Source: Isoetes taiwanensis (taxonomy: Eukaryota > Streptophyta > Lycopodiopsida > Isoetales > Isoetaceae). From it: a stretch of DNA of 64,000 nt. This document shows, piece by piece, positions 34,801 through 60,868 of the stretch. Positions within the stretch are counted from its first letter, which is position 1, and each line of letters opens with the position of its first letter. Below the pieces are notes generated by a model. The model was not told where the DNA came from and searched no databases. It was given only the letters and a program-made list of their open reading frames with translations. The stretch spans positions 10,466,214-10,530,213 of the forward strand of contig JAJEKV010000050.1 in the NCBI GenBank assembly GCA_021234155.1. The letters run 5' to 3'. The position numbers were made by a program, and so were the translations under genes.

Positions 34801-36690
34801 GAGTAGCTCCTCTTGGGTTCAATTATATTGCTCTTTGTTTGGAGATAAACTCCTGTTAGTTAAAGTGAAACAGTACTTCACAAAGTAGGAGGTTCAAGCC
34901 CTCCCTCTAGCTCCTATCATTTAGAACACATCCAATAATGCAAAGAAATAGCATCAAGTTCAAGAGCGTTAAAAAGCCGTTATAAGTCATACTATGTTTT
35001 TTTAGCAGTTGGTTCAATTATATTATGCTTTAGTAGCTCAATTGGTTAGAAGTGTGAGCATTAACCACAAGGTCAAGACCCTCCCTCTAGCGAGCTCTTA
35101 TTGGTTAGAAGACATCACATAATGCAAGGATAGAAGTTATGTAATTTTAAGCGATCATTGCACCAAACCTACCTCTAGGCTGGAAGCCCATACCATCATT
35201 CACGATGAGAGTTGTTGAATTTAAACAATATATTGGCACACATAATCTAGAGAGAAAAACATTGGAAGTCATGCTCTGTTTGGATCCTCTGATTTGAAAA
35301 TTATCACATCATCAAAGAATGGCATCAACTTGTGTAAGTTATGAAATTGAAACATTTTGTGCACTCAAGATTTAAAAGCACACCATAACTCATAATGTGT
35401 TTTGGCTAGAGTAGCTCTGGTTCAATTGTATGTTTGGTTAGTAGCTTCGATTAATGGTTAAATTATTGGTACATTAACCACAAGGAATTCCGGAGGGTTC
35501 AAGCCCTCCCTCTTGAGCTTAGTATTTGGAATGCATCCAATAATGCAAAGGAATAGCATCAAGTTATTTGGAGCATCCAATAATGCAAGGAATAGCATCA
35601 AGTTCAAGGCGTTAAAGCCGTTATAAGTCATACTATGTTGTTGATTGAGTTATGTTATGCTTTGGAAACAGGTAAGCTCCACTTAGTTGCCCAAATGTGG
35701 GTGAGTAGCTCAGTTGGTTAAGCGTCACATTTTATTAACCACAAAATTAGGAGGTTCAAACTCACAGCACCTGAGCTCTTACTAGTTAGAAGACATCACA
35801 TAATGCAAAGGATAGAAGTCATTTAATTTAAGTAGTGGGTTACCAAACCTACCTCTAGTGAGCTCTTGTGCTTAGAAGCCAACCGTCATTCGATAGAAGT
35901 TATTTAATTTACAAACAATATATTGGCTGCTTATGATCTAGAAAAACATTGGAAGTCATATTACATTTTGGATCCTAGAAAGATATCCTATCATCAAAGG
36001 ATAGCATCAAGTTGCATAAGTTCTGAAATTTAAACGTTTATTGCACTCAGTTAAAGCACGCAAAACTCATAATGTGTCTTGGCTAGAGTAAGCTCTGCTT
36101 TGGTTCAATTATGTTATGCTTTGGTGGAGTAGCTCAGTTGGTTGAAGTGTGGCTAGTAACCACAAGGGCGGAGGTTCAAGCCCTCCCTCTAGCGAGCTCC
36201 TATTATTTAGAGCATCCAATAATGCAAAGAATGGCATCGAGTTGAGGCGTTAAAAGCTGGCGTTATAAATTAAATTACTATGTTTTTAGCATGATTGGTT
36301 CAATTATATTTATGCTTTAGTAGCTCAATTGGTTAGAGTGTGTGAGTTTGTTAACCCGCAGTCGAGGAGGATCAAGCCCTCCCTCTAGCGAGCTCTTATT
36401 AATTCAGAAGACATCACATAAATACAAAGGATAAGTTATGTTATTAAGCAGTCATTGCTTAGAAGCCATACCGTCATTCGATAGAAGTCATTTTATTTAA
36501 ACAATATATTGCATGTCTAGAAAAGCATTGGAAGTCATGCACCATTTTGGATCCTACGAATTTGAAAAGTATCTGCTCGTAAAGCGTCGAAACTTTGTGT
36601 AAAGTTGTAAAGAGTGAAGCATTTTTGTGCAGCCGAGAGATTTAAAAGCCGCATTATCGCATGTTATAATGTTATGCGTAATTCACGGAT
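31886..36690 (+). repeat. tRNA-Asn-derived tandem array 2 (degraded)
   Basis: Fifteen copies: a truncated class A form 31944-31990; class A 32203-32280, 34129-34210, 35434-35514; class B 32464-32528, 34393-34478, 35699-35773; class C 32887-32964, 33507-33578, 34836-34911, 36123-36194; class D 33073-33146, 33696-33771, 35027-35092, 36314-36390. The order is mostly A-B-C-D with one extra C-D pair. The T54-to-A change of class D and the CCTACCT acceptor side of class B are still visible. None keeps a fully paired cloverleaf with an intact anticodon loop by my reading. The best preserved is 36123-36194. Confidence 0.85.
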
Positions 36691-40340: not shown

Positions 40341-40451
40341 TGACTGGACGCACCTATCGGACGGTCCCGAGGATTTGAGTTCGACCATCAATTGGAGATG
40401 ATGTGTCAGGTGTCTTCAACTAAAATTTCATCTTGACTATGGCTTCAATAT

Positions 40452-42328: not shown

Positions 42329-42349
42329 TTAAAGGTTCCTAATTTATAC

Positions 42350-45300
42350 TTGTGGTAGGTACCATTATAGTTATGTTATGTTTAGGTTGAAGTAGCTCGA
42401 TTGGTTAAATGTGTTTATTAACCAGGACAATATATTGGCACCACATAATCTAGAGAAAGAAGCAGTAGATCATACTCATTTTTCGATCCTCACGATTTGA
42501 AAAGTATCCCATCATCCACATCAACTTGTGTAAAGTTGTAAGAGAATTGAGCATTTTGTGCACTCAAGATTTAAGCACACCATAACTCATAATGTGTTTT
42601 GGCTAGAGTAGCTCTTTCTTGGTTCAATTATGTTATGTTTTAGTTGGAAATGCTTCGATTGGTTAGAAGCGTGTGGTACATTAACAAGGTCAGGAGGTTC
42701 AAGCCCTCCCTCACAGCAAGCTCCTATTATTTGGAATGCATCCCGATAATGCAAGGAATAGCATCAAGTTATTTGGAGCGTCAATAGTAAGGAATAGCAT
42801 CAAGTTCAAGGCGTTAAAATACGTTATAAGTCATACTATGTTGTTGATTCGGTTATGTGTTATGCTTTGGGTACAGGTAAGCTCACTTGGTTAGGCGTGT
42901 GGGTACGGAAGTATTTCGATTGGTTAGAAGCGTCACATTTTAATTATACAAGATTCCGGAGAGTTCAAGCCCTACCTTCTGACTCTTACTAGTTAGAAGA
43001 CATCACATAATACAAAGGATAGAAGTCATTTTAATTTAAATGAGTCGTTGCACCAAACCTACCTCTAAAGTAGGCTCTTATTGCTTAGAAGCCATACCAT
43101 CATTCGATAGAATTATTTAATTTAAACAATATATTGGCTGTACTTGATCTAGAGAAAAACATTTGGAAGTCATATTATTGTTTTGAGATCCTACTAGAAA
43201 GATATCCTATCATACAAAGGATAGCATCAAGAGTTGCATAAGTTAGCAGAAATTGAAACATTTTAAGATAAAAGCACACCATAACTCATAATGTGTTTTG
43301 GCTAAATTAAGCTCTATTTGGTTCAGATTATGTTATGTTTTAGGTTAGGAAGTAGCTCGATTAAGTTTAGAAGCGTGTTTTATTTAAACCACAAGGACAA
43401 TATATTGGCACACATAATCTAGAAAAACATTAGGAAGTCATATACGTTTCCGATCCTACGATTTGAAAAGTATCTATCATCCACATCAACTTGTATAAGT
43501 TATAGAAATTAAGAGCAATTTGTACTTAAGTTTTAAAGCACACCGCAACTCCTGTGTGTTTTTGGCTAGAGTAGCTCTTTGAAGTTCAATTATGTTATGT
43601 TTTAGTTGAAGTAGCTCCCGGTTGAGTTTAAATGTGGTACATTAACCACAAAGGTGGGAGGTTCAAGCCCTCCCTACAGCAAGCTCTATTATTTGGAATG
43701 CATCCAATAATCACGAGGAATAGCATCAAGTTATTTGGAGCATCCAATGAAATGCAAGGGAATAGCATCAAGAACCCAAGGCGTTGAAAATAACGTTATA
43801 AGTCATACTATATTTGTTGATTCGAGTTATGTTATGCTTTAGCTGGAGTAGCTCACTTGGATTAAGCGTGTTTGGAGTAGCTTTCGGTCGGTTAGAAGCG
43901 TCTGAGTACATTGAAAACCACAAGGTCCGGAGTTCAAAGCCTACCTTCTGAGCTCTTACTAGTTAGAAGACATCACATAATGCAAAGGATAGAAGTCATT
44001 TTAATTTAAATGAGTCGTTGCACCAAACCTACCTCTAGTGAGCTCTTATTACTTAGAAGCCATACCATCATTACGATAGAAGTTATTTGAAAATTTAAAG
44101 CAATATATTGGCTGTATGATCTAGAAAAACATTGGAAGTCATATTAAGAGAAAAACATTGGAAGTCATGATACGTTTTGAATCCTACTAGAAAGATATCC
44201 TATCATCAAAGGATAGCATCAAGTTGCATAAAGGATTCTGAAGTTAAACATTTGTGCACTCAAGATTTAAAAAGCACACCATAACTCATAATGTGTCTTG
44301 GCTAGAGTAGCTCTGGCAGTTCAATTATGTTATGCTTTGTTTGGGAAGTAGCTCGGAGTTAGTTTAGAAGCGTGTGGTACATTATACAGTAGGAGGTTAA
44401 GCCCTCCCTCTAAGCGAGCTCTATTTAGAGCATCCAATAATGCAAAGAATAGCATCAAGTTCAAGGCGTTAAAACGCGTTATAAGTCATGCACTATGTTT
44501 TCGCCCAGTTGGTTCAATTATGTTATGCTTTAGTAGCTCAATTGGTTGTTCAGAGTGTGTGGGCATTAACCCACAAGGTGGGGAGGAGGATCCGAAGCCC
44601 CTCCCACTCTAAAATCACCGTAGTTAGAGAAGACATCCACTTAAATACAAAGGATAGAATTTATGTTATTCATGATCATTACTTAGAAGCCATACCATCA
44701 TTTGATAGAAGTCATTTAATTTTAAACAATATGATGGCACATAATCTAAGAGAAAAACATTGGAAGTGTACTCACATTTTCCCGGATCCTACGATTTGAA
44801 AAGTATCCTATCATCCCACATCAACTTGTAGCAGTTATAAAATTAAGAAACATTTTATACCTCAAAGATTTAAAAGCACACCATAACTCGCAATGTGTTT
44901 TGGCTAGAGTAGCTCTGTAGTTCAATTATGTTATGTTTGAGTTGAAGTAGCTCGGAGTTGGTTAGGCGTGTGGTACATTAACCCACCGAGTTAATATATT
45001 AGCACACATAATCTGAGAAAAACATTGGAAGTCATATACGTTTCGATCCTCACGATTTGAAAAGTATCCTATCATCCACATCCAACTTGTGTAAGTTATG
45101 AAATTGAAACATTTTGTGCACTCAAGATTTAAAAGCACACCATAACTCATAATGTGTTTTGGCTAGAGTAGCTCTTTAGTTCAATTATGTTATGTTTTGG
45201 TTAAGGAAGTAGCTCAGTTGGTTAGAAGTGTGGTACATTAACCACAAATTCGGAGGGTTCAAGCCCTCCCTCTAGCAAGCTCCTATTATTTTGAATGCAT

Positions 45301-47300
45301 CCAATAATGCAAGGAATAGCATCAAGTTATTTGGAGCATCCAATAATGCAAGGAATAGCATCAAGTTCAAGGCGTTAAAGCCACGTTATAAGATATTTGT
45401 TGGATTCAGTTATGTTATGCTTTGCATTTGGAGTAGCTCACTTGGTTAGAAGCGTGTGGGTACGGAGTAGCTGGAGTTGGTTAAACGTCTGGTACATTAA
45501 CCACAAGGTGGGAGGGTTCAAGCCCTACCTCTAGCGAGCTCTTACTAGTTAGAAGACATCACATAATGCAAAAGGGATAGAAGTTATGTAATTTAAATGA
45601 GTAGTTGCACCAAACCTACCTCTAGTGAGCTCTTGCTTGAAGCCATACCATCATTCTGATAGAAGTTATTTAATTTAAACAATATATTGACACAACATGA
45701 TCTAGAGAAAAACATTGGAAGTCATATTACATTTTGGATCCTACTAGAAAGATATCCTATCATCAAAGGATAGCATCAAATTTATAAGTTGAAATTTAAA
45801 CATTTATTGCACTCAAAGTTAAAAGCCCCATAACTCATAATGTGTTTGCAAAAAGAAACAAATTAAGCTGGTTCGAAGAGATTATGTTATCGCTTTAGGT
45901 TTAAGATGCTTCAGTTAGTTCGGCGTGTAAATTTATTAACCACAAAACCGGAGGTTCAGCCACTCGCAAAAGCTCCTGTTAGAGGCGCGTCAATGATACA
46001 AAGAATAGCATCAGGTTCAGGCGTTAAAGCCGTTAAGTATACCATGTTTTCACCTTGATTAGGTTCAGATTATCACTGGCTCAATTGGTTAGAGTGTTAA
46101 TGGGCATTAACCACAAGGTGAGGATCAAACCCTCCCTCGCTGGAAAGCAATGGATTAGAAGACATCCACACATATTAAAGGATCAGTTAAATTTAAGCAG
46201 TCCGGTACGCAAACCACCTCGCGAAACTATTACTTTAAACCGCTCATTATATTTTTTATAATCCAGAAAACATTGGAGATCATGCGGTTTTGGATCCATC
46301 CAGCAAGTTATAAGAATTAAACGTTGTGCACTCAATATTTAAGCCACCACAATGTGTTTTGGCTAAATTATTTCTGGCTGGTTGATTATATTTATGTTTC
46401 GGTTAAAATGCTTCGGTTAGTTCGTAATTTATTAACCACAAAGATTGAGTTCAAGCCCTCCCTCGCAAACTATTGTTTGGAATAAAATGAAAATGCAGGA
46501 ATAGCATCAAGTTATTTGGGCATAATAATTAAAGGAATAGCATCAAGTTCGACGGTCGTTAATTGGTTCGGTTATGTTATGCTTTTAATTTAAGGTAAAT
46601 AGTTCGGCCCGATATGGTAAAGATATCGGTTGGTTAAATCATTTTGTTAACAAAGGTCGGAGTTCAAGCCGCTGAGCTGGTTGAACATCACATAATCGAG
46701 GATAAGTTATATAAAGATTTAAATAGTCGTTGCGCAAACCCTCGAGTGAACTCTTATTACATCATTCGGTTATTTAATTTAAAGCAATATATTGCTTGAT
46801 CTGGAGTCATAATTACATTTTGGATCCTGAAAGATATCTATCATCAAAGGATAACATCAAGTTCAAAGTTCGAAATTCGGCATTTATTTTCAAGATTCGC
46901 TTCCTAATATTGATTTTGGCTAAGAATTATTTGGTTCGAATTATGTTATGCTTTGTTGGAATTAGCTTCGATTAAGTTCGTGTGTTTATTAACCACAAGG
47001 CGGTTAAAACCTATTAATTACGAGCGCGTCGATAAATACAAAGAAGAATAGCATCAAAGTTCAAAGGCGTTCATGCGTTATAAAGTCATACTATGTTTTC
47101 GCGGTTGGTTCGAATTATGTTAATGCTTTTATTTCAGTTGGTTCGGTGTGTTTATTAACACAAAGATTACGGAGGATCAGAAAGCCCTCCCGAAGCCGAA
47201 TATTGGTTAGAAGACATAGTACAAAGGATAAGTTAATGCAATTTAAGCGGGTCGTGCGCAAACCACATAAAGCAAACCGCCATCTTATATTATAATGTTA
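42350..47300 (+). repeat. tRNA-Asn-derived tandem array 3 (degraded)
   Basis: Seventeen copies: truncated class A forms 42385-42428, 43343-43397, 44941-44990; class A 42642-42718, 43604-43681, 45199-45278, 46400-46469; class B 42901-42981, 43870-43950, 45459-45536, 46615-46674; class C 44340-44416, 45899-45970, 46954-47012; class D 44527-44615, 46075-46144, 47124-47198. The last third (45.85-47.2 kb) is the most eroded, with units shortened to about 250 bp. Some units show a truncated-A, A, B order not seen in the uniform part of array 4. All appear to be pseudogenes. Confidence 0.85.
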
Positions 47301-47518
47301 TCGCGGTAATTCACGGATTGGATCAAGCCTAGATTGGGTCGGGGATCATCCGCAAATTGCGTAAAGTAGGATTTCGCTGGCTTCCTGCAGATCATCTTAT
47401 AATGTTATCGTAGTTCTGGATTGGATCAAAGCCAATTGGAATAGTCGAGGATCATCAGGTGCATCAAAGAAGTGAAGTTTCTCGCTGAAAGTCATTGACC
47501 ATGTTAGCCGATCTTATG
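47278..47518 (+). repeat. Right-junction sequence, two copies
   Basis: CATCTTATATTATAATGTTA at 47281 and ATCATCTTATAATGTTATCG at 47391 are each followed by GGATTGGATCAA-GCC and GGATCATC. The flank that follows arrays is therefore duplicated here, directly before polypurine tract 2. Confidence 0.6.
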
Positions 47519-49240: not shown

Positions 49241-49347
49241 TCGGATGCACAAAAGCCTCTTAAAGCTCGGCAATCACGGGATTAGTTTCTATTATATTAG
49301 ATTTATGAAGGGTCACGGTGAGATGGGTTTGTCCACATAGATTCCCA

Positions 49348-49377: not shown

Positions 49378-52300
49378 CATTATATGTTGGCACACACTTA
49401 ATCAGAGAAAAGGCTTGTTGGAAGTCACACTCTTGTTTTTGGATCTCACGATTTGAAAGTATCCTATCATCCACATCAACTTGGTATAGGATTATGAAAT
49501 TGGAAACATTTTGTGCACTCAATGTTTAAAAGCGCACCATAACTCATAATGTGTTTGGCTAGAGTAGCTCTGGCCCGAGACAATTATGTTATGTTTAGGT
49601 TGGAAGTAGCTCGGTTGGATTTAAGCGTGTAGGCACATTAACCACAAGGTCGGAGAGTTCAAGCCCTCCCTCTAGCAAGCTCTAATATTTGGAGATACAT
49701 CAATAATGCAGCGGCAGCATCAATATCCACGAGGAATAGCATCAGAGTTCAAGGCGTTAAAAGCCGTTATAAGTCATACTATGTTGTTGGTTGAGTTATG
49801 TTATGCTTTGTTTGGAGTAGCTCGCACTTGGTTAAGTGTGTTTGGAGTAGCTCGGTTAGTTTAAATGATAAGGCATTAGCCACAAGGTCGAGGTTCAAGC
49901 TACCTCTAAGCGAGCTCTTACTGGTTAAGAGACATCACATAATGCAAAGGATAGAGTTATGTAATTTAAATAATTCGTTGCACCAAACCTACCTCTGATG
50001 TTTTATTGCTTGAAGCCATACCGGCATTCGGTAGTACAATTTAATTTAAACCAATATATTGGCTGGCAGTCGAGAAAAACATTGGGAAGTCATAATGCAT
50101 TTTGGATTCTCACTAGAAGATGTCCTATCATCCAAAGGATAGCATCAAGTTGCATAAGTTAAATTTAAACATTTTGTGCACTCAAGATTTAAAGCACACC
50201 ATAACTCGCATAATGTGTTTGGCTAGAGTGGCGCTCTTTGGTTCAATTATGTTATGTTTTGGTTGAAGTAGCTTTCAGTTAGTTTAAGAGCGTGTAATTT
50301 GTTAACCACAAGGTGGGAGGTTCCAGCCCTCCTCTAGCAATCCTATTATTTGGAATGCATCCAATAATGCAAGGAATAGCATCAAGTTATTTGGGGCAGC
50401 ATCAATGATGCAAGGAATAGCATCAAGTTCAAGGCGTTAAAAGCCGTTATAAGTCATGTACTATGTTGATTAGGTTAGCATGTTATGCTTTGGGTGGAGT
50501 AGCTCACTTGGTTGGTGTGTTTGGAGTAGCTCGATCGGTTAGGCGTCACGAGAACATTAACCACAAGGTGGGAGGTTCAGCCCTGCAGCTACAGTCTTAC
50601 TAGTTAAGAAGACATCACATAATTACAGAAAGGATAGAAGTCATTTTAGTTTAAGTAGTGGTTGCACAAACCTACCTCCTAATTGAGCTCTTATTACTTA
50701 GAAGCCATACCATCATTACGATAGAAGTTATTTAATTTAAGCAATATATTGGCACAAGCAGTCTAGAGAAAACATTGGAAGTCATATTAGAGAGAAAAAC
50801 ATTGGAGTCATATTACGTTTTGAATCCTACTGAGATATCCTCATCCAAAGGGATGGCATCAAGTTGCATAAGTTCACGAGAATTTAAACATTTTGTGCAC
50901 TCAAGATTTAAAAGCACACCATAACTCATAGTATTGTCTTGGCTGGAGTAGCTCTATTTGGTTCAATTATGTTATGCTTTGGGTACGGAGTAGCTGGAGT
51001 TAGTTTAAATGTGTTTACATTAACCAGGAGGAGTTCAAGCCCTCCCTCTAGCGAGCTCCTATTATTTAAAACATCCAATAATCTGAGAATAGCATCAAGT
51101 TCAAGGCGTTAAAAGCCGTTATAAGTCATACTATGTTTTTCGCAGTTGGGACTTCAATTATATTTATGCTTTAGTAGCTCAATTGGTTAGAGTGTGTGGG
51201 CACACATTAACCACAAGATTCGGGAGGATCAAGCTCCCATAAGCAATCTTATTAGTTAGAGGCATCACATAATGCAAAGGATAGAAGTTATGTTATTAAT
51301 GATCATTACTTAGAAGCCATACCATCAAATTCAGATAGAGAGTCAATTCAAAGTTTAAACAATATCATTCCCAGCTTTGCAAAATCTAGAGAAAACATTG
51401 TTAGAATCATACTCTCACGTTTTGGATCTCGATTTGAAAATTATCCTATCATCCATCTAACTTGTATAGGATTATGAAATTAAAACATTGGATTTTAAAA
51501 GCACCATAACTCGCAATGTGTTTTGGCTAGAGCTTCTAGCTTCTTTGGTTAATTATGTTATGTTTGGGAGTTGAGTAACAGGTTGATTTAAAACGTGTAG
51601 ACATTCACCAAGGACAATATATTGGCACACATAATCTAGAGAAAAACATTGGAGGTCATACTCTGTTTCGATCCTCGATTTATTAATCCTATCATCACAT
51701 CAACTTGTGCCGGGTATGAAATTGAAACATTTTGTGCACTCAAAGTTAAAAGCACCAAAGCTCTGTAATGTGTTTGGTATTCTAGTTCAATTATATTTAT
51801 TTGGTTAAATGGCTGGGTTGGTTAGAAGTGTGGTAAAACTAAGCAAAGTCGGAGGGAGTTTCGGCCTCCCTCTATGGCTCCTATTATTTTAGGATGCATC
51901 CAATAATGCAAGGAATAGCATCAAGTTATTTGACATCCAATAATCTGAGGAATAGCATCAAGTTCAAGGCGTTAAAGCCGTTATAAGATGTTGTTAGTTC
52001 AGTTATATTTATGCTTTACAGAATTTAAGCTCATGGACAGAAGCGTGTGGGCTAGCTCAGTTGGATTCCAGAAAATGCATTTATTAACCAATTGGAGGGT
52101 TCAAAGCCCTACCTCTGAAATACTGGATTAAAGAAGACATCACCGTAAAGAATAGAGAGCCCTGTTTTGGCCAATTCGTTGCACCAAAACTACCTCAGTG
52201 AGCTCCTTGCTTAAAATGCCATGCTTCACCCAGGTAGTTATTTAAATTTAAAGCAGTATATTGACCTGCTTATGATCTAGAAAAACATTGGAAGTCATAT

Positions 52301-53722
52301 TACATTTTGGGATCCCCTCTTAGAAAGATATATCATCAGAGGATGGCATCAATTTTATAAGTTCGAAATTTAATTTTGTGCACTCAAGATTTGGCACAAC
52401 AAATATTAGGCTAGAGTAGCTCTCTTTAGTTCAATTAAACATATAAGCTTTGGGTAGCTCAGTTGGTTGGAAGTGTGAGTTTACATTAACCACAAAATTT
52501 GGAGGAGTTCAAGCCCTCCCTCTAGCAAGCTCCTATTATTTAGAAGCATCCAATAAATACAAAAAGGCCATCAGAACAAGGCGTTAAAACCGTTGATTAT
52601 TATATGTTTTTAGTTGGTTTCAATTATGTTATGCTTTAGTAGCTCGATTGGTTAGAGTGTGTGTTTATTGGCAACCACAAGGTCAGGAGGATCAAGCCCT
52701 CCCTCTAAGCGTCTTGTGGTTGAAAGCATCTATTTGGGATAGAAGTTATGTAATTTAAGCAGGTCATTGCCAAACCTACCTCTAGCGAGAGCTCTTATTG
52801 CTTACAAGCCATGCCATCATTATATATTGGCACACATAATCCTAGAGAAAACATTGGAGATATACTACATTTTTTGGATCCTCGCCCACATCATCCACAT
52901 CAACATTATGAAGTTACCAAATTTGTTGTTTGTGCACTCAATATTTAAAAGCACACCATAACTCATAATGTGTGTTTTGGCTAGAGTGGCTTCTATTTGG
53001 TTCAATTATGTTATGTTTGGTTGAAGTAGCTCAGGTTGGTTAAAGCATTAGTAGGTACATTAATACAAGATTGGGGAGGTTCAGCCCTCCCCTCTAAGCA
53101 AGCTCTAATATTTAGGAATACATCCAATAAAGTACAAAGGAATAGCATCAGAGAAGAGTTATTTGGAGCACTTAATAGTACAGGAATAGCATCAAGTTCA
53201 AGGCGTTAAAGCGTTATAAGATGGTGTTGGATTCGGTTATGTTATGCTTTGTTTTAAGATGGCTCGCGTTTAAGAAGCGTGTGGCTGGAGTATGCTCAGT
53301 TGGTTAAATCACGACATTAACCACAAAGGTGGGAGAGTTCAAAGCCTACCTACTAGCGAGCTCTTACTAGTTAAAGAAGACATCACATAATGCAAAAGGA
53401 TAGAAGTTATATAATTTAAATAGTCGTTACTACAAGCCTACCTCTAGTGAGCTCTTATGCTTAGAAGCCATACCATCATTCGATAGAAGTTATTTAATTT
53501 AAACAATATATTAGCCTGACAGTCTAGAGAAAAACTTGTTGGAAGTCATGAAATTACATTTTGGATCCTACTAGAAAGATATCCTATCATCCAAAGGATA
53601 GCATCAAGTTGCATAAGTTACGAAATTTAAACATTTTGTGCACTCAAGATTTAAAAGCACACCATAACTCATAATGTGTTTTGGCTAGAGTAGCTCTGCT
53701 GGTTCAATTATGTTATGCTTTG

Positions 53723-53798
53723 GCTGGAGTAGCTCGATTGGTTAGAAGTGTGGTACGTTAACCACAAAGGCGGAGAGGTTCAAGCCCTCCCTCTAGCG
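53723..53798 (+). pseudogene. tRNA-Asn pseudogene, class C
   Basis: This 76-nt copy has a good acceptor stem and B box, but the anticodon arm reads GTGTGGTACGTTAACCAC with a disturbed loop, and there are extra bases in the variable region and T stem. It is the last degraded-looking copy before the uniform block. Confidence 0.6.
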
Positions 53799-53912
53799 AG
53801 CTCCTATTATTTAGAACGCATCCAATAATGCAAAGAATAGCATCAAGTTCAAGACGTTAAAGCACGTTATAAGTCATACTATGTTTTTGCGCAGTTGGTT
53901 CAATTATGTTAT

Positions 53913-53986
53913 GCTTTAGTAGCTCAATTGGTTAGAGTGTGTGGCTGTTAACCACAAGGTCGGAGGATCAAGCCCTCCCTCTAGCG
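53913..53986 (+). tRNA. tRNA-Asn(GTT)-like, class D, probably defective
   Basis: It is 74 nt with an intact GTT anticodon loop. The 5' acceptor strand GCTTTAG leaves two mismatches against CTCTAGC, and the T loop starts ATC instead of TTC (T54 to A), which breaks the B box. One D-stem change (GAGT) gives a wobble. Confidence 0.5.
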
Positions 53987-54275
53987 AGCTCTTATTAGTT
54001 AGAAGACATCACATAATGCAAAGGATAGAAGTTATGTAATTTAAACAGTCATTGCACCAAACCTACCTCTAGCGAGCTCTTATTACTTAGAAGCCATACC
54101 ATCATTATATATTGGCACACATAATCTAGAGAAAAACATTGGAAGTCATACTCTGTTTTGGATCCTACGATTTGAAAAGTATCCTATCATCCACATCAAC
54201 TTGTGTAAGTTATGAAATTGAAACATTTTGTGCACTCAAGATTTAAAAGCACACCATAACTCATAATGTGTTTTG

Positions 54276-54301
54276 GCTAGAGTAGCTCTGCTGGTTCAAT
54301 T
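54276..54301 (+). repeat. tRNA 5'-half relic (extra A box)
   Basis: GCTAGAGTAGCTCTGCTGG matches tRNA-Asn nucleotides 1-20 and is followed by TTCAATTATGTTATG, the common 5' flank of all copies. It lies 39 bp before the full class A copy, so two A-box-like sequences precede one B box. The same relic precedes the class A and C copies throughout the uniform block (54946 before the copy at 54985, for example). Confidence 0.7.
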
Positions 54302-54314
54302 ATGTTATGTTTCG

Positions 54315-54331
54315 GTTGAAGTAGCTCAGTT

Positions 54332-54364
<33 letters not shown>

Positions 54365-54388
54365 GAGGTTCAAGCCCTCCCTCTAGCA
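54315..54388 (+). tRNA. tRNA-Asn-GTT: tRNA-Asn(GTT), class A
   Basis: It is 74 nt with A box TAGCTCAGTTGG, loop CTGTTAA and B box GGTTCAAGCCC intact. The 5' acceptor strand GTTGAAG pairs with CTCTAGC with one A-C mismatch and two G-U pairs. The discriminator is A, not G, which is unusual for plant tRNA-Asn. No run of four T follows for over 500 nt, so a transcript would read into the next (class B) copy. Confidence 0.7.
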
Positions 54389-54541
54389 AGCTCCTATTAT
54401 TTGGAATGCATCCAATAATGCAAGGAATAGCATCAAGTTATTTGGAACGCATCCAATAATGCAAGGAATAGCATCAAGTTCAAGACGTTAAAGCACGTTA
54501 TAAGTCATACTATGTTGTTGGTTCAGTTATGTTATGCTTTG

Positions 54542-54646
54542 GCTGGAGTAGCTCACTTGGTTAGAGCGTGTGGCTGGAGTAGCTCAGTTGGTTAGAGCGT
54601 CTGGCTGTTAACCACAAGGTCGGAGGTTCAAGCCCTACCTCTAGCG
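54542..54646 (+). tRNA. tRNA-Asn-GTT: tRNA-Asn(GTT), class B with duplicated 5' half
   Basis: The 74-nt tRNA occupies 54573-54646. Directly before it, 54542-54572 repeats nucleotides 1-31 (acceptor strand, D arm and anticodon-stem strand), so the 5' half is in tandem with a 31-bp period. The body has a C28-C42 mismatch (GTCTGG) and a T-stem mismatch at 50-64 (CCTAC). Both A and B boxes are intact. Confidence 0.75.
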
Positions 54647-54984
54647 AGCTCTTACTAGTTAGAAGACATCACATAATGCAAAGGATAGAAGTTATGTAAT
54701 TTAAATAGTCGTTGCACCAAACCTACCTCTAGTGAGCTCTTATTACTTAGAAGCCATACCATCATTACGATAGAAGTTATTTAATTTAAACAATATATTG
54801 GCACAACATGATCTAGAGAAAAACGGATCCTACTAGAAAGATATCCTATCATCCAAAGGATAGCATCAAGTTGCATAAGTTACGAAATTTAAACATTTTG
54901 TGCACTCAAGATTTAAAAGCACACCATAACTCATAATGTGTTTTGGCTAGAGTAGCTCTGCTGGTTCAATTATGTTATGCTTTG

Positions 54985-55058
54985 GCTGGAGTAGCTCAGT
55001 TGGTTAGAGCGTGTGGCTGTTAACCACAAGGCCGGAGGTTCAAGCCCTCCCTCTAGCG
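54985..55058 (+). tRNA. tRNA-Asn-GTT: tRNA-Asn(GTT), class C, canonical
   Basis: This is a complete 74-nt cloverleaf: acceptor GCTGGAG/CTCTAGC (one G-U), D stem GCTC/GAGC, anticodon stem TGTGG/CCACA with loop CTGTTAA (anticodon GTT), variable loop AGGCC, T stem GGAGG/CCTCC with loop TTCAAGC, and discriminator G. CCA is not encoded, as expected in eukaryotes. It inserts asparagine in cytosolic translation and would be made by RNA polymerase III from its internal A and B boxes. The first T run (five T at 55144-55148) is 86 nt downstream. Copies at 58940 and 60279 are identical. Confidence 0.93.
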
Positions 55059-55172
55059 AGCTCATATTATTTAGAACACATCCAATAATGCAAAGAATAG
55101 CATCAAGTTCAAGACGTTAAAGCACGTTATAAGTCATACTATGTTTTTGCGCAGTTGGTTCAATTATGTTAT

Positions 55173-55189
55173 GCTTTAGTAGCTCAATT

Positions 55190-55222
<33 letters not shown>

Positions 55223-55246
55223 GAGGATCAAGCCCTCCCTCTAGCG
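55173..55246 (+). tRNA. tRNA-Asn(GTT)-like, class D, probably defective
   Basis: The D and anticodon arms are fully paired with a GTT loop. The class D damage is present: 5' acceptor GCTTTAG and T54 changed to A (GGATCAAGCCC). The first T run is about 196 nt downstream. Confidence 0.5.
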
Positions 55247-55608
55247 AGCTCTTATTAGTTAGAAGACATCACATAATGCAAAGGATAGAAGTTATGTAAT
55301 TTAAACAGTCATTGCACCAAACCTACCTCTAGCGAGCTCTTATTACTTAGAAGCCATACCATCATTACGATAGAAGTTATTTAATTTAAACAATATATTG
55401 GCACACATAATCTAGAGAAAAACATTGGAAGTCATACTCTGTTTTGGATCCTACGATTTGAAAAGTATCCTATCATCCAAAGAATAGCATCAACTTGTGT
55501 AAGTTATGAAATTGAAACATTTTGTGCACTCAAGATTTAAAAGCACACCATAACTCATAATGTGTTTTGGCTAGAGTAGCTCTGCTGGTTCAATTATGTT
55601 ATGTTTTG

Positions 55609-55625
55609 GTTGAAGTAGCTCAGTT

Positions 55626-55658
<33 letters not shown>

Positions 55659-55682
55659 GAGGTTCAAGCCCTCCCTCTAGCG
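55609..55682 (+). tRNA. tRNA-Asn-GTT: tRNA-Asn(GTT), class A with G discriminator
   Basis: This has the class A body with acceptor strand GTTGAAG, but the 3' end is CTCTAGCG, so it has the normal discriminator G, unlike the other class A copies in the uniform block. All arms except the A5-C68 acceptor pair are consistent. Confidence 0.72.
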
Positions 55683-55835
55683 AGCTCCTATTATTTGGAA
55701 TGCATCCAATAATGCAAGGAATAGCATCAAGTTATTTGGAACGCATCCAATAATGCAAGGAATAGCATCAAGTTCAAGACGTTAAAGCACGTTATAAGTC
55801 ATACTATGTTGTTGGTTCAGTTATGTTATGCTTTG

Positions 55836-55883
55836 GCTGGAGTAGCTCACTTGGTTAGAGCGTGTGGCTGGAGTAGCTCAGTT

Positions 55884-55916
<33 letters not shown>

Positions 55917-55940
55917 GAGGTTCAAGCCCTACCTCTAGCG
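55836..55940 (+). tRNA. tRNA-Asn-GTT: tRNA-Asn(GTT), class B with duplicated 5' half
   Basis: The full tRNA lies at 55867-55940, with the extra 5' half at 55836-55866. Here the anticodon stem is perfect (GTGTGG), unlike the class B copies at 54573 and 59845. The class B T-stem mismatch (CCTAC) remains. Confidence 0.78.
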
Positions 55941-56271
55941 AGCTCTTACTAGTTAGAAGACATCACATAATGCAAAGGATAGAAGTTATGTAATTTAAAT
56001 AGTCGTTGCACCAAACCTACCTCTAGTGAGCTCTTATTACTTAGAAGCCATACCATCATTACGATAGAAGTTATTTAATTTAAACAATATATTGGCACAA
56101 CATGATCTAGAGAAAAACATTGGAAGTCATACCTATCATCCAAAGGATAGCATCAAGTTGCATAAGTTACGAAATTTAAACATTTTGTGCACTCAAGATT
56201 TAAAAGCACACCATAACTCATAATGTGTTTTGGCTAGAGTAGCTCTGCTGGTTCAATTATGTTATGCTTTG

Positions 56272-56345
56272 GCTGGAGTAGCTCATTTGGTTAGAGCGTG
56301 TGGCTGTTAACCACAAGGCCGGAGGTTCAAGCCCTCCCTCTAGCG
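56272..56345 (+). tRNA. tRNA-Asn-GTT: tRNA-Asn(GTT), class C, near-canonical
   Basis: It is identical to the copy at 54985 except for one change in the D loop (TAGCTCATTTGG), which alters a usually conserved A-box position. All stems pair. Confidence 0.85.
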
Positions 56346-56459
56346 AGCTCCTATTATTTAGAACGCATCCAATAATGCAAAGAATAGCATCAAGTTCAAG
56401 ACGTTAAAGCACGTTATAAGTCATACTATGTTTTTGCGCAGTTGGTTCAATTATATTAT

Positions 56460-56533
56460 GCTTTAGTAGCTCAGTTGGTTAGAGCGTGTGGTTGTTAACC
56501 ACAAGGTCGGAGGATCAAGCCCTCCCTCTAGCG
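56460..56533 (+). tRNA. tRNA-Asn(GTT)-like, class D, probably defective
   Basis: It has the class D acceptor GCTTTAG and T54-to-A, plus C32 to T in the anticodon loop (TTGTTAA). The A box reads TAGCTCAGTTGG. Confidence 0.5.
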
Positions 56534-56887
56534 AGCTCTTATTAGTTAGAAGACATCACATAATGCAAAGGATAGAAGTTATGTAATTTAAACAGTCATT
56601 GCACCAAACCTACCTCTAGCGAGCTCTTATTACTTAGAAGCCATACCATCATTACGATAGAAGTTATTTAATTTAAACAATATATTGGCACACATAATCT
56701 AGAGAAAAACATTGGAAGTCATACTCTGTTTTGGATCCTACGATTTGAAAAGTATCCTATCATCCACATCAACTTGTGTAAGTTATGAAATTGAAACATT
56801 TTGTGCACTCAAGATTTAAAAGCACACCATAACTCATAATGTGTTTTGGCTAGAGTAGCTCTGCTGGTTCAATTATGTTATGTTTCG

Positions 56888-56904
56888 GTTGAAGTAGCTC
56901 AGTT

Positions 56905-56937
<33 letters not shown>

Positions 56938-56961
56938 GAGGTTCAAGCCCTCCCTCTAGCA
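56888..56961 (+). tRNA. tRNA-Asn-GTT: tRNA-Asn(GTT), class A
   Basis: It has the same sequence as the class A copy at 54315, including the A discriminator (TAGCAAGCT) and the acceptor A5-C68 mismatch. Confidence 0.7.
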
Positions 56962-57116
56962 AGCTCCTATTATTTGGAATGCATCCAATAATGCAAGGAA
57001 TAGCATCAAGTTATTTGGAATGCATCCAATAATGCAAGGAATAGAATCAAGTTCAAGGCGTTAAAAGCATCGTTATAAGTCATACTATGTTGTTGGTTCA
57101 GTTATGTTATGCTTTG

Positions 57117-57220
57117 GCTGGAGTAGCTCACTTGGTTAGGCGTGTGGTTGGAGTAGCTCGTTCGATTAGAGCGTCTGGCTGTTAACCACAAGGTTGGAGG
57201 TTCAAGCCCTACCTCTAGCG
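57117..57220 (+). pseudogene. tRNA-Asn class B pseudogene
   Basis: The duplicated 5' half begins at 57117 and the body runs 57147-57220. The acceptor starts GTTGGAG and the D loop reads TAGCTCGTTCGATTA, losing the A box. The anticodon stem has the C28 mismatch and the variable loop is AGGTT. The B box is intact. Confidence 0.6.
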
Positions 57221-57571
57221 AGCTCTTACTAGTTAGAAGACATCACATAATGCAAAGGATAGAAGTTATGTAATTTAAATAGTCGTTGCACCAAACCTAC
57301 CTCTAGTGAGCTCTTATTACTTAGAAGCCATACCATCATTCTGATAGAAGTTATTTAATTTAAACAATATATTGGCACAACATGATCTAGAGAAAAACAT
57401 TGGAAGTCATATTCTCCCTACTAGAAAGATATCCTATCATCCAAAGGATAGCATCAAGTTGCATAAGTTCTGAAATTTAAACATTTTGTGCACTCAAGAT
57501 TTAAAAGCACACCATAACTCATAATGTGTTTTGGCTAGAGTAGCTCTTTGGTTCAATTATGTTATGCTTTG

Positions 57572-57646
57572 GCTGGAGTAGCTCATTTGGTTAGGCGTGT
57601 GGTACTGTTAACCACAAGGGCGGAGGTTCAAGCCCTCCCTCTAGCG
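57572..57646 (+). pseudogene. tRNA-Asn class C pseudogene with indels
   Basis: The D stem has lost a base (TTAGGCGTG for TTAGAGCGTG) and two extra bases precede the anticodon loop (GTGTGGTACTGTTAACC). The acceptor, T arm and discriminator are normal. Confidence 0.6.
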
Positions 57647-57759
57647 AGCTCCTATTATTTAGAACATCCAATAATGCAAAGAATAGCATCAAGTTCAAGG
57701 CGTTAAAAGCACGTTATAAGTCATACTATGTTTTTTGTTGATTGGTTCAATTATATTAT

Positions 57760-57813
57760 GCTTTAGTAGCTCAATTGGTTAGAACCACAAGGTTCAAGTT
57801 AACCACAAGTTAG
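57760..57813 (+). pseudogene. Broken class D copy
   Basis: It starts as class D (GCTTTAGTAGCTCAATTGG) but then jumps to ACCACAAGGTTCAAG and a second ACCACAAG. The T arm and acceptor 3' strand are missing. The spacer after it is also duplicated: TCACATAATGCAAAGGATAG occurs near 57815, and a second copy of that spacer near 57907. Confidence 0.7.
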
Positions 57814-58235
57814 TCACATAATGCAAAGGATAGAAGTTATGTAATTTAAATGGGTCATTGCACCCCTACCTCTAGCGAGCTCTTATTACTTAGAAGACAT
57901 CATCATAATAATGCAAAGGATAGAAGTTATGTAATTTAAAAGATCATTGCACCAAACCTACCTCTAGCGAGCTCTTATTACTTAGAAGCCATACCATCAT
58001 TACGATAGAAGTTATTTAATTTAAACAATATATTGGCACACATAATCTAGAGAAAAACATTGGAAGTCATACTCTGTTTTGGATCCTACGATTTGAAAAG
58101 TATCCTATCATCCACATCAACTTGTGTAAGTTATGAAATTGAAACATTTTGTGCACTCAAGATTTAAAAGCACACCATAACTCATAATGTGTTTTGGCTA
58201 GAGTAGCTCTGCTGGTTCAATTATGTTATGTTTCG

Positions 58236-58252
58236 GATGAAGTAGCTCAGTT

Positions 58253-58285
<33 letters not shown>

Positions 58286-58309
58286 GAGGTTCAAGCCCTC
58301 CCTCTAGCA
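58236..58309 (+). tRNA. tRNA-Asn-GTT: tRNA-Asn(GTT), class A variant
   Basis: This is a class A body with one more acceptor change (GATGAAG at the 5' end), giving an additional mismatch, and an A discriminator. The internal promoter boxes and GTT loop are intact. Confidence 0.62.
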
Positions 58310-58462
58310 AGCTCCTATTATTTGGAATGCATCCAATAATGCAAGGAATAGCATCAAGTTATTTGGAACGCATCCAATAATGCAAGGAATAGCATCAAGT
58401 TCAAGACGTTAAAGCACGTTATAAGTCATACTATGTTGTTGGTTCAGTTATGTTATGCTTTG

Positions 58463-58579
58463 GCTGGAGTAGCTCACTTGGTTAGAGCGTGTGGCTGGAG
58501 TAGCTCAGTTGGTTAGAGCTCACACATAATGCCCGGTGCAGTAACCACAAGGTCGGAGGTTCAAGCCCTACCTCTAGCG
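58463..58579 (+). pseudogene. Class B copy with replaced anticodon arm
   Basis: The duplicated half (58463) and the acceptor and D arm of the body (from 58494) are normal. After TTAGAGC the sequence becomes TCACACATAATGCCCGGTGC followed by AGTAACCACAAGG, so the 5' strand of the anticodon stem and the loop are lost while the T arm and acceptor end remain. The inserted CACATAATGC resembles the spacer string CACATAATGC, so a spacer fragment may have been copied in. Confidence 0.75.
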
Positions 58580-58939
58580 AGCTCTTACTAGTTAGAAGAC
58601 ATCACATAATGCAAAGGATAGAAGTTATGTAATTTAAATAGTCGTTGCACCAAACCTACCTCTAGTGAGCTCTTATTACTTAGAAGCCATACCATCATTA
58701 CGATAGAAGTTATTTAATTTAAACAATATATTGGCACAACATGATCTAGAGAAAAACATTGGAAGTCATATTCTGTTTTGGATCCTACTAGAAAGATATC
58801 CTATCATCCAAAGGATAGCATCAAGTTGCATAAGTTACGAAATTTAAACATTTTGTGCACTCAAGATTTAAAAGCACACCATAACTCATAATGTGTTTTG
58901 GCTAGAGTAGCTCTGCTGGTTCAATTATGTTATGCTTTG

Positions 58940-59013
58940 GCTGGAGTAGCTCAGTTGGTTAGAGCGTGTGGCTGTTAACCACAAGGCCGGAGGTTCAAGC
59001 CCTCCCTCTAGCG
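58940..59013 (+). tRNA. tRNA-Asn-GTT: tRNA-Asn(GTT), class C, canonical
   Basis: It is identical over 74 nt to the canonical copy at 54985, about 3.96 kb upstream (three repeat units). The 5' half relic lies 39 bp upstream and the common 5' flank TTATGTTATGCTTTG directly precedes it. Confidence 0.93.
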
Positions 59014-59134
59014 AGCTCCTATTATTTAGAACGCATCCAATAATGCAAAGAATAGCATCAAGTTCAAGACGTTAAAGTTAAAGCACGTTATAAGTCATAC
59101 TATGTTTTTGGCACAGTTGGTTCAATTATGTTAT

Positions 59135-59208
59135 GCTTTAGTAGCTCATTTGGTTAGAGTGTGTGGCTGTTAACCACAAGGTTGGAGGATCAAGCCCTCC
59201 CTCTAGCG
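59135..59208 (+). tRNA. tRNA-Asn(GTT)-like, class D, probably defective
   Basis: It has the class D changes (GCTTTAG acceptor, T54 to A), plus a D-loop change (CTCATTTGG), a D-stem G-U (GAGT) and variable loop AGGTT. The anticodon is GTT. Confidence 0.48.
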
Positions 59209-59551
59209 AGCTCTTATTAGTTAGAAGACATCACATAATGCAAAGGATAGAAGTTATGTAATTTAAACAGTCATTGCACCAAACCTACCTCTAGCGAGCT
59301 CTTATTACCATACCATCATTACATACCATTTCATTTAAACAATATATTGGCACACATAATCTAGAGAAAAACATTGGAAGTCATACTCTGTTTTGGATCC
59401 TACGATTTGAAAAGTATCCTATCATCCACATCAACTTGTGTAAGTTATGAAATTGAAACATTTTGTGCACTCAAGATTTAAAAGCACACCATAACTCATA
59501 ATGTGTTTTGGCTAGAGTAGCTCTATTTGGTTCAATTATGTTATGTTTTGG

Positions 59552-59625
59552 GTTGAAGTAGCTCAGTTGGTTAAAGCGTGTGGCTGTTAACCACAAGGTC
59601 GGAGGTTCAAGCCCTCCCTCTAGCA
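59552..59625 (+). tRNA. tRNA-Asn-GTT: tRNA-Asn(GTT), class A
   Basis: Class A with an A discriminator. The D stem carries one change (TTAAAGCG for TTAGAGCG), which weakens the D arm. It is otherwise identical to 54315. Confidence 0.62.
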
Positions 59626-59813
59626 AGCTCCTATTATTTGGAATGCATCCAATAATGCAAGGAATAGCATCAAGTTATTTGGAACGCATCCAATAATGCA
59701 AGGAATAGCATCAAGTTCAAGACGTTAAAGCACGTTATAAGTCATACTATGTTGTTGGTTCGAATGTTAAAGCACGTTATAAGATGTTGTTGGTTCAGTT
59801 ATGTTATGCTTTG

Positions 59814-59918
59814 GCTGGAGTAGCTCACTTGGTTAGAGCGTGTGGCTGGAGTAGCTCAGTTGGTTAGAGCGTCTGGCTGTTAACCACAAGGTCGGAGGTT
59901 CAAGCCCTACCTCTAGCG
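59814..59918 (+). tRNA. tRNA-Asn-GTT: tRNA-Asn(GTT), class B with duplicated 5' half
   Basis: The body 59845-59918 is identical to the class B copy at 54573, including GTCTGG (C28 mismatch) and CCTAC (T-stem mismatch). The extra 5' half starts at 59814. The spacer before it holds a small extra duplication of GTTAAAGCACGTTATAAG. Confidence 0.75.
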
Positions 59919-60278
59919 AGCTCTTACTAGTTAGAAGACATCACATAATGCAAAGGATAGAAGTTATGTAATTTAAATAGTCGTTGCACCAAACCTACCT
60001 CTAGTGAGCTCTTATTACTTAGAAGCCATACCATCATTACGATAGAAGTTATTTAATTTAAACAATATATTGGCACAACATGATCTAGAGAAAAACATTG
60101 GAAGTCATATTCTGTTTTGGATCCTACTAGAAAGATATCCTATCATCCAAAGGATAGCATCAAGTTGCATAAGTTACGAAATTTAAACATTTTGTGCACT
60201 CAAGATTTAAAAGCACACCATAACTCATAATGTGTTTTGGCTAGAGTAGCTCTGCTGGTTCAATTATGTTATGCTTTG

Positions 60279-60352
60279 GCTGGAGTAGCTCAGTTGGTTA
60301 GAGCGTGTGGCTGTTAACCACAAGGCCGGAGGTTCAAGCCCTCCCTCTAGCG
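60279..60352 (+). tRNA. tRNA-Asn-GTT: tRNA-Asn(GTT), class C, canonical
   Basis: This is the last canonical copy, identical to those at 54985 and 58940. Downstream the spacer reads GTTTTCTTGTG, so a T4 occurs about 85 nt after the tRNA end. Confidence 0.93.
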
Positions 60353-60466
60353 AGCTCCTATTATTTAGAACGCATCCAATAATGCAAAGAATAGCATCAA
60401 GTTCAAGACGTTAAAGCACGTTATAAGTCATACTATGTTTTCTTGTGATTGGTTCAATTATATTAT

Positions 60467-60541
60467 GCTTTAGTAGCTCAATTGGTTAAAAGCGTGTGGT
60501 TGTTAACCACAAGGTCCCCTCTTCAAGCCCTCCCTCTAGCG
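60467..60541 (+). pseudogene. Terminal class D-like pseudogene
   Basis: The last copy of the array is damaged. The acceptor is GCTTTAG, the D stem has an inserted base (TTAAAAGCG), and the T stem 5' strand is replaced (AAGGTCCCCTCTTCAAGCCC). Its 3' flank switches to the class A/C type (GAGCTCCTATTATTTAGAAT) and then to a shortened class D spacer. Confidence 0.65.
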
Positions 60542-60841
60542 AGCTCCTATTATTTAGAATGCATCACATTAGTTAGAAGGATAGAAGTTATGTAATTTAA
60601 ACAGTCATTGCACCAAACCTACCTCTAGTGAGCTCTTATTACTTGGAAGCCATACCATCATTACGATAGAAGATATTTAATTTAAACAATATATTGGCAC
60701 AACATGATCTAGAGAAAAACATTGGAAGTCATATTCTGTTTTGGATCCTACTATTTGAAAGGTATCCTATCATCCAAAGGATAGCATCAAGTTGCATAAG
60801 TTACGAAATTTAAACATTTTGTGCACTCAAGATTTAAAAGG

Positions 60842-60868
60842 ACACCATCTTATATTATAATGTTATTT
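60842..60868 (+). repeat. Right-junction sequence of array 4
   Basis: The last spacer (CAAGATTTAAAAGGACACC) runs directly into ATCTTATATTATAATGTTAT and then GTGTTGGACCCAGCCC. The same order follows the adjacent junctions at 26.5 kb. Confidence 0.65.

Follow-up and report, generated by a model that had tools for sequence, protein, structure and literature searches.

Probable decay and silencing of a tandem tRNA-Asn array with higher-order repeat structure in the lycophyte Isoetes taiwanensis

Tandemly repeated tRNA genes have been described in Entamoeba histolytica, in plants and in man. The subject of this report is a tandem array of tRNA-Asn(GTT) copies in the lycophyte Isoetes taiwanensis, which lies in a stretch of 64,000 nucleotides (positions 10,466,214 to 10,530,213 of the forward strand of contig JAJEKV010000050.1, GenBank assembly GCA_021234155.1). 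This stretch is hereafter called the window, and coordinates refer to it unless a contig is named; contigs (among them C1057, to which the window belongs) and fetched stretches carry C and L numbers, respectively. We consider it likely that the array is a nuclear satellite derived from tRNA-Asn(GTT) which has largely decayed, is probably silenced and does not constitute a main source of tRNA-Asn. Comparisons with published systems are limited to the available open-licence text of the papers cited, supplements excluded.

In E. histolytica, nearly all tRNA genes lie in arrays whose spacers contain short tandem repeats. Many isotypes occupy separate arrays of tandem units with one to few tRNA genes, Asn-GTT among them, and the arrays NK1 and NK2 combine Asn(GTT) with Lys(CTT) (PMC2652664). 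The Isoetes genome resembles this arrangement in that many isotypes occur in separate tandem arrays with 1–5 tRNA genes per unit. However, unlike Entamoeba, it also has dispersed genes followed by a T run (seven isotypes), and the Asn array of the window appears largely decayed and forms a higher-order repeat.

Among plants, chromosome 1 of Arabidopsis bears clusters of Ser-Tyr-Tyr and of Pro genes (PMC11700998, PMC12308677). The Ser-Tyr-Tyr cluster is methylated at CG and CHG, silent in most tissues and expressed in root tips (PMC12308677); its methylation has been measured, whereas that of the Isoetes array can only be inferred. These clusters share with Isoetes the tandem arrangement of plant tRNA genes but differ in isotype, and the available text describes no nested repeat of four slots. 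A survey of 69 angiosperms with about 150–1,500 tRNA genes names Pro, Tyr-Ser and Ile clusters, including one of 28 tRNA-Ile genes in maize (PMC11700998). It counts three or more tDNAs within 1 kb as a cluster; in the window there are four calls at 54315–55247, counted with ARAGORN instead of tRNAscan-SE and a high-confidence filter. Another survey, of 50 plants, reports clusters of 2–110 genes and, for initiator Met (iMet) as well as every one of the 20 amino acids, identical tRNA genes in tandem; in the bryophyte designated ‘Cpu’, clusters comprise 26, 18 and 14 identical genes, and units of two or three genes occur in up to 37 repeats (PMC12652284). Long tandem clusters, some with several isotypes per unit, are thus a point of likeness, but an Asn satellite or a higher-order repeat is not described in the text of these surveys, and the name Isoetes is absent from the main text of PMC12652284.

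In man, a tRNA tandem repeat at 1q23.3 consists of 7.3-kb units in 9–43 copies (PMC4041453). It likewise places tRNA sequence within a large tandem repeat, but its unit is much longer, is GC-rich and binds CTCF. A first-pass annotation of the Isoetes locus, made from the letters of the DNA, had stated that no equivalent was described for tRNA-Asn. As regards tandem copies this was too strong (PMC2652664, PMC12652284), but no description of a higher-order tRNA-Asn repeat, nor of any Isoetes tRNA array, was found in the open-licence PubMed Central (PMC) literature, supplements excluded. The locus is better described as a tRNA-Asn satellite, largely decayed and probably methylated, whose genome contains many other tRNA arrays.

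Higher-order structure of the array

ARAGORN recognizes 18 tRNA genes in the window, 16 of type Asn(GTT) and two called ‘Thr’. All of the former and one ‘Thr’ are located at 53,912–60,352, the second ‘Thr’ being called at 36,122. Rfam yields 20 tRNA matches above gathering score, 19 of them inside the main array, where two weaker matches come in addition to the ARAGORN calls; degraded tRNA-Asn copies are present besides the 16 predicted Asn genes. The best-resolved part of this array (53722..60860, plus strand) was divided into eleven half-units of 581–727 nt each, in which A-B and C-D pairs of tRNA copies alternate to give about 5.5 higher-order units of 1.28–1.37 kb. Class A slots start at 54,985, 56,272, 57,572, 58,940 and 60,279 (spacings 1287, 1300, 1368 and 1339), class C copies at 54,315, 55,609, 56,888, 58,236 and 59,552 (spacings 1294, 1279, 1348 and 1316). 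These spacings, ranging from 1,279 to 1,368 nt, confirm the 1.28–1.37 kb period proposed in the first-pass annotation, and the copies do follow one another in the order C-D-A-B. Its limits, 53360–60850, do enclose an array but were drawn too narrowly, the unit continuing to the left at 49.4–53.7 kb and in three other islands. The scan for tandem repeats covered the 64-kb window only.

Each class carries diagnostic changes of its own, as had been claimed. All copies are on the plus strand. Class A (54985..55058, 56272–56345, 58940–59013, 60279–60352) is a fully paired tRNA-Asn(GTT), scoring 71.8 bits in Rfam for three copies and 69.7 for that at 56272. It has GGCC ahead of the T stem in four of five copies; the fifth, at 57,572, has GGGC, and it is this slot (57572–57646) that is called ‘Thr’, probably a miscall. 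In class B (55173..55246, with further copies at 53913, 56460 and 59135, a degraded one at 60467 and a mostly deleted one at 57760), the 5' end is eroded (GCTTTAG), the acceptor pairs 4-70 and 5-69 are broken and the T arm contains GGATC. Class C (55609..55682; 54315, 56888, 58236, 59552) begins with GNTGAAG in 5/5 copies and has a broken acceptor pair 5-69. Class D (55867..55940; 54573, 57147, 59845; a copy with an insertion at 58463–58579) shows the T-stem strand CCTAC, a broken T-stem pair 51-65 and a doubled 31-nt tRNA 5' half upstream.

A half-unit is laid out as tRNA, short spacer, tRNA, long spacer, and the spacers are homologous from copy to copy, in agreement with the earlier annotation. 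The short spacer measures 114 nt in its class A form (55059..55172, plus strand) and 184 nt in its class C form (e.g., 55683–55866, plus strand) owing to a doubled 41-nt block. The long spacer (about 360 nt; 55247..55608, plus strand) contains tRNA remnants: a 31-nt piece is identical at 28/31 positions to the tRNA 3' end and its downstream flank (local score 47, compared with 24 for the best of 500 shuffles) and, once this match is masked, a 22-nt piece is identical at 19/22 positions to the tRNA 5' half (score 29). We infer that eroded tRNA monomers are incorporated in the long spacer.

Half-units of one class resemble each other more than those of different classes, the mean identity over all eleven being 95.8% within classes (25 pairs, 89.4–99.9%) and 93.0% between them (30 pairs, 89.7–96.1%), with overlapping ranges. 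Without the three half-units judged error-laden (h0, h6 and h10), identities are 96.0–99.9% within (13 pairs) and 92.7–96.1% between classes (15 pairs). The units are arranged head to tail, and those one period apart are more alike than adjacent half-units, which supports the tandem tRNA-Asn array with a four-slot higher-order repeat that had been proposed. This repeat is present in the assembly but of low contrast; a number of copies probably contain assembly errors, and the identities between half-units may be inflated by Pilon polishing across paralogues.

In alpha satellites, which have a centromeric position, units one period apart are likewise more alike than neighbours in higher-order repeats. 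The Isoetes array shares this feature. However, the likeness to alpha satellite drawn in the first-pass annotation is loose, since the half-units differ by only about 4–7% and other arrays order the same blocks differently: on C343 often as tRNA, short, tRNA, long, tRNA, long (t-s-t-L-t-L), on C710 and at C1057:10.36–10.37 Mb as runs of tRNA and short spacer (t-s).

That the unit might be missing elsewhere in the genome had been named in advance as grounds for giving up the annotation. It is found on C343, C710, C136, C1027, C1028 and elsewhere on C1057. A search with a 1,441-base query through 1,658,258,908 bases in 1,110 contigs, the query's own neighbourhood being left out of the listing, gave at least 131 aligned stretches, mainly on C1057, C343, C710 and C136. 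A 41-base tRNA-Asn pattern (up to 3 mismatches) occurs at at least 105 places, some of which are single genes. C343 was analysed over bases 1–40,000 of its 133,181, and the other arrays were also fetched in part.

The main array ends in a joint of long spacer to a repeat end (CACCAT/CTTATATTATAATGTTAT; 60843..60866, plus strand). In the part of C343 that was fetched, the joint recurs at two places, both at the identical spacer point, and C710 has it there once with one base different; by eye the islands of the window end in similar joints near 22.4, 36.65 and 47.3 kb. The same joint in the window, C343 and C710 suggests an inserted element whose interruption was later copied along with the array blocks. 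The repeat end ATCTTATATTATAATGTTAT stands at array joints and in other tRNA-array stretches (window 60843; L012, L013, L015, L029, L036, L037 and L041) and perhaps represents one transposable-element family.

Condition of the copies and sequencing error

A functional nuclear tRNA gene is expected to show full pairing and, shortly downstream, a T run at which Pol III terminates, and overall the window array does not. Full cloverleaf pairing is found in 4/17 ungapped window copies, all of class A, and in 9/9 dispersed Asn loci; a run of four T (T4) lies within 25 nt of the 3' end in 0/17 window copies, the nearest being 85 nt away, and again in 9/9 dispersed loci. In polished Asn arrays elsewhere, 2/60 ARAGORN calls have such a run. 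The window test was made on ungapped 74-mers with up to 14 mismatches and therefore missed gapped noisy copies (C343 gave seven, C136b none). As for the dispersed loci, ten single-looking ones were fetched, C1026, C1035, C1095, C479 and others being left out, and C996 (L009) was dropped as truncated; the remaining nine perhaps represent seven independent loci, L002/L003 and L004/L005 being near-identical pairs by eye. The single genes on C1061 and C1033 (L006, L008), which are followed by T4 within 25 nt, are 99% identical to class A over 74 nt. That the four classes are four working gene types was rejected in the case of B, C and D because of their broken pairs. Where the first-pass annotation spoke of tRNA-Asn genes, Asn copies they are, but most are probably not working genes.

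Two further tests concern selection and methylation. Over 86 array copies, 41/86 distinct base changes break a stem, compared with a chance expectation of 37.8 (SD 3.1), i.e., there is no sign of selection on single copies. In 34 polished long spacers (at least 250 nt), transitions per site amount to 0.137 at CG, 0.117 at CHG, 0.031 at CHH and 0.010 at A/T; in 63 polished tRNA bodies (hits of at least 68 nt) the values are 0.071, 0.083, 0.020 and 0.017, respectively. The excess at CG and CHG fits past cytosine methylation and suggests that the array was once methylated in these two contexts.

A number of observations weigh against such a picture of decay. Class A retains the full cloverleaf, and an A box pattern is present in 12/17 and a B box in 13/17 window copies. 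At C1057:10.357–10.386 Mb, 13/23 copies are fully paired and T4 follows within 25 nt in 5/23 ungapped copies, two of them being ARAGORN tRNA-Asn calls, so some of these copies may be transcribed. The Arabidopsis Ser-Tyr-Tyr genes are methylated and yet transcribed in root tips (PMC12308677). In addition, the stem-break test measures changes against class A, combines copies from several arrays and leaves gapped ones out, while the transition test treats the consensus as the ancestor and some ‘polished’ copies may retain errors.

Apparent decay can also have a technical origin. The published assembly was made from Oxford Nanopore Technologies (ONT) R9.4.1 reads with miniasm, racon and Pilon (1658.30 Mb, 204 scaffolds and 909 contigs; PMC8566536). 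Four error-laden stretches on the plus strand lie to the left of the best-resolved part: the direct continuation of the array (49382..53721; indel:substitution ratio 0.82 in tRNA and 1.22 in spacer) and islands at 42427..47129, 31884..36649, which contains the ‘tRNA-Thr’ at 36122, and 16739..22410. In the last of these, class C and class A short-spacer forms mostly alternate, with one break, like in the main array. These four left-hand islands (16.7–53.7 kb) show 51–81 indels per kb and indel:substitution ratios of 0.79–1.22. Other noisy arrays have ratios of 0.57–0.77 (C343), 0.75–0.93 (C136, 203–210 kb) and 0.47–0.98 (C1057 near 10.409 Mb), the main window array 0.50–0.67, and the arrays considered polished, i.e., C710, C136 (188 kb), C1057 (10.357–10.386 Mb), C1027, C1028 and C362, 0.10–0.50; tRNA hits below 55 nt and spacer hits below 90 nt were left out of the error counts.

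In the noisy parts, errors per site reach 0.34–0.44 at CHG, 0.23–0.26 at CG and 0.09–0.15 at CHH. The A/T inside CWG is affected more often than other A/T, with 0.415 vs 0.120 in the noisy window islands (95% confidence interval of the ratio 2.85–4.16), 0.368 vs 0.058 on C343 and 0.357 vs 0.090 in C136b, as compared with 0.056 vs 0.052 in the polished arrays. This rise argues against mutation because cytosine methylation cannot itself change that base. On these grounds and on that of the indel:substitution ratio, ordinary mutation was rejected as the source of decay in the left-hand islands, and we conclude that most of their ‘decay’ is attributable to nanopore base-calling or consensus error, with methylation as a likely cause; C343 and part of C136 appear to be affected in the same way. 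A paper on a plant base-caller states that methylation differences will likely reduce accuracy (PMC9749173); the term CHG is absent from its text. Speaking against base-calling error of this kind, a weaker rise at GWC triplets (0.27, 0.21 and 0.19 in the noisy window islands, C343 and C136b, respectively, and 0.084 in polished arrays) shows that the effect is not confined to CHG and that sequence context by itself plays some part.

The two ‘tRNA-Thr’ calls, at 57,572 and 36,122, were discarded as an isotype and are probably miscalled Asn copies, since changes of the type GTGGCTGTTAACC to GTGGTAC(T)NTTAACC recur by eye and the errors are located at CHG sites. In practice, unpolished nanopore sequence of tRNA arrays imitates decayed tRNA genes and creates false isotypes.

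Proposed origin and rival explanations

The arrangement, the classes, the broken pairs, the absent T runs, the CG/CHG transition excess and the relatives on other contigs are observed; the history behind them may be pictured as follows. A tRNA-Asn gene of the G7:C67 type would have been amplified head to tail together with its flanks. Partial deletions and unequal exchange could then have given rise to two blocks, tRNA plus short spacer (about 190 nt) and tRNA plus long spacer (about 436 nt), which were presumably joined to a half-unit of about 640 nt and subsequently to a repeat of two half-units, i.e., four slots, of about 1.3 kb. This repeat would have been copied and homogenised in turn. 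Features of a working gene, namely acceptor or T-stem pairs and the nearby T run, are missing from most window copies, and the array, apparently methylated at CG and CHG in the past, is probably silenced, heterochromatin-like DNA. Unequal exchange, methylation, silencing and this order of events are all deduced from the sequence.

Alternatively, the array could be a working one, in which tRNA-Asn comes from class A in particular tissues or under particular conditions and the remaining slots have merely been produced along the way by homogenisation. The four class A window copies are indeed fully paired and have a GTT anticodon. Arrays of other isotypes can look sound, T4 being present within 25 nt in 15/15 iMet, 7/7 Asp and 9/9 Gly/Ser sampled array calls. 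Moreover, the iMet, Ala, Gly, Lys, Asp and Asn array types are each one or two paired double changes away from the dispersed type, which implies that array-type genes were once under selection for pairing. However, the window copies themselves lack a nearby T run altogether, changes in the array copies break stems at close to the chance rate and T runs are present at nine dispersed Asn loci, all of which makes a working array unlikely.

It is more doubtful still that much of the structure is a product of the assembly, reads from a simpler array having been collapsed or duplicated by the assembler and the classes having arisen as chimeras during polishing. The choice of reads and programs mentioned above and the left-hand islands, with their many indels and their errors concentrated at CHG, would be in keeping with this, but the structural class marks (the 31-nt and 41-nt duplications) recur in successive units, and the arrays on C710, C136 (188 kb), C1027, C1028 and C1057 consist of the same blocks with few indels. 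Finally, tRNA-related sequence with internal promoter boxes would also be expected of short interspersed nuclear elements (SINEs), i.e., tRNA-derived retroposons lying close together by chance. Such an origin is highly improbable here, as the copies are arranged head to tail and each is flanked on either side by homologous spacers. Among the genome matches listed for the 1,441-base query most are in arrays, and nine of the ten single Asn loci match the tRNA alone, the one on C996 also matching 58 nt of the long spacer.

Tandem tRNA arrays elsewhere in the genome

A tRNA family search of the assembly gave 99,872 first-look candidates, 63 of which were scored. On fetched stretches, ARAGORN detects arrays of Ile(TAT) genes on C1101 and C1018. 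On C1079 it detects an Arg(TCT)-Thr array whose unit of about 920 nt (L035, L037) is another four-slot repeat, slots of Arg(TCT) alternating with those of Thr(AGT) and of Thr(CGT). Pattern searches located at least 186 places for Ala, at least 167 for Gly and at least 154 for Lys, as well as 74 for iMet, 89 for Asp, 75 for Phe and 33 for Pro. According to per-contig counts, taken from complete lists only, 62/74 iMet places are on C534, C971 and C1021, 77/89 Asp places on C1042 and C1103 and 56/75 Phe places on C1078; Pro is only loosely grouped (13/33 in C908:24.15–24.48 Mb). Sampled units carry Ala with Ser(GCT), Ala with Trp, Gly with Ser(AGA) and two Lys types. Ten array unit types can be distinguished, namely Asn, Ile, Arg+Thr, iMet, Ala+Ser, Ala+Trp, Gly+Ser, Lys, Asp and Phe. 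Arrays of isotypes other than Asn are found on C1101, C1018, C1079, C534, C971, C1021, C66, C921, C926, C232, C1106, C38, C986, C1042 and C1078, several with at least two tRNA types per unit.

Besides the iMet, Asp and Gly/Ser arrays already mentioned, T4 lies within 25 nt in 11/17 Ala/Trp, 9/14 Ala/Ser, 3/6 Lys, 5/26 Ile, 1/4 Phe, 1/57 Arg/Thr and, as given above, 2/60 Asn calls, in samples that are small and hand-picked from the lists. The corresponding count for sampled dispersed genes of seven isotypes is 30/33, where three ‘dispersed’ loci (L055, L061 and L071) are array-type in sequence by eye. When one array type was compared with one dispersed type per isotype in the acceptor and T stems, iMet, Lys, Asp and Asn showed one paired double change each, Gly two and Ala two plus one broken pair; the Phe sequences were identical. 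Together, the T4 counts and the paired changes indicate that the condition of the arrays varies, some looking usable and the window Asn array mostly not.

The chances seem about even that Isoetes possesses a second, array-borne set of tRNA genes, in which many isotypes each have their own satellite (1–4 tRNA genes per unit), are mostly distinct from the dispersed genes and, in several cases, have been kept sound by paired double changes. The window Asn array would then be a decaying member of what, to judge from the literature searched, would be the first such genome-wide system described in a vascular plant. In any event, ten array unit types in one lycophyte assembly offer a system for asking how a tRNA gene becomes a satellite, in what way selection on an array is escaped or lost and whether arrays that have been silenced serve as reserve genes. 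Such arrays may also bear on the 8,975 tRNA genes annotated in the related I. sinensis, which the available text gives without comment (PMC10541799) and which compare with about 150–1,500 in the angiosperm survey; I. sinensis is a tetraploid whose count may include pseudogenes.

Some minor observations may be added. L042 and L043 contain Ala(TGC)-like copies sharing a 3' flank that is possibly part of a transposable element. Proximity of the window array to a telomere was considered and rejected, neither TTTAGGG nor CCCTAAA being found in the last 2,965 bases of C1057. The sequences between the array islands were likewise rejected as mutual copies: compared with each other, they match at E 1e-8 only within pieces. 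These inter-island sequences include purine-rich tracts of up to about 90% A+G per kb (40,420–42,330 and 47,500–49,280), and 16/23 window open reading frames of at least 120 amino acids are readings of purine tracts.

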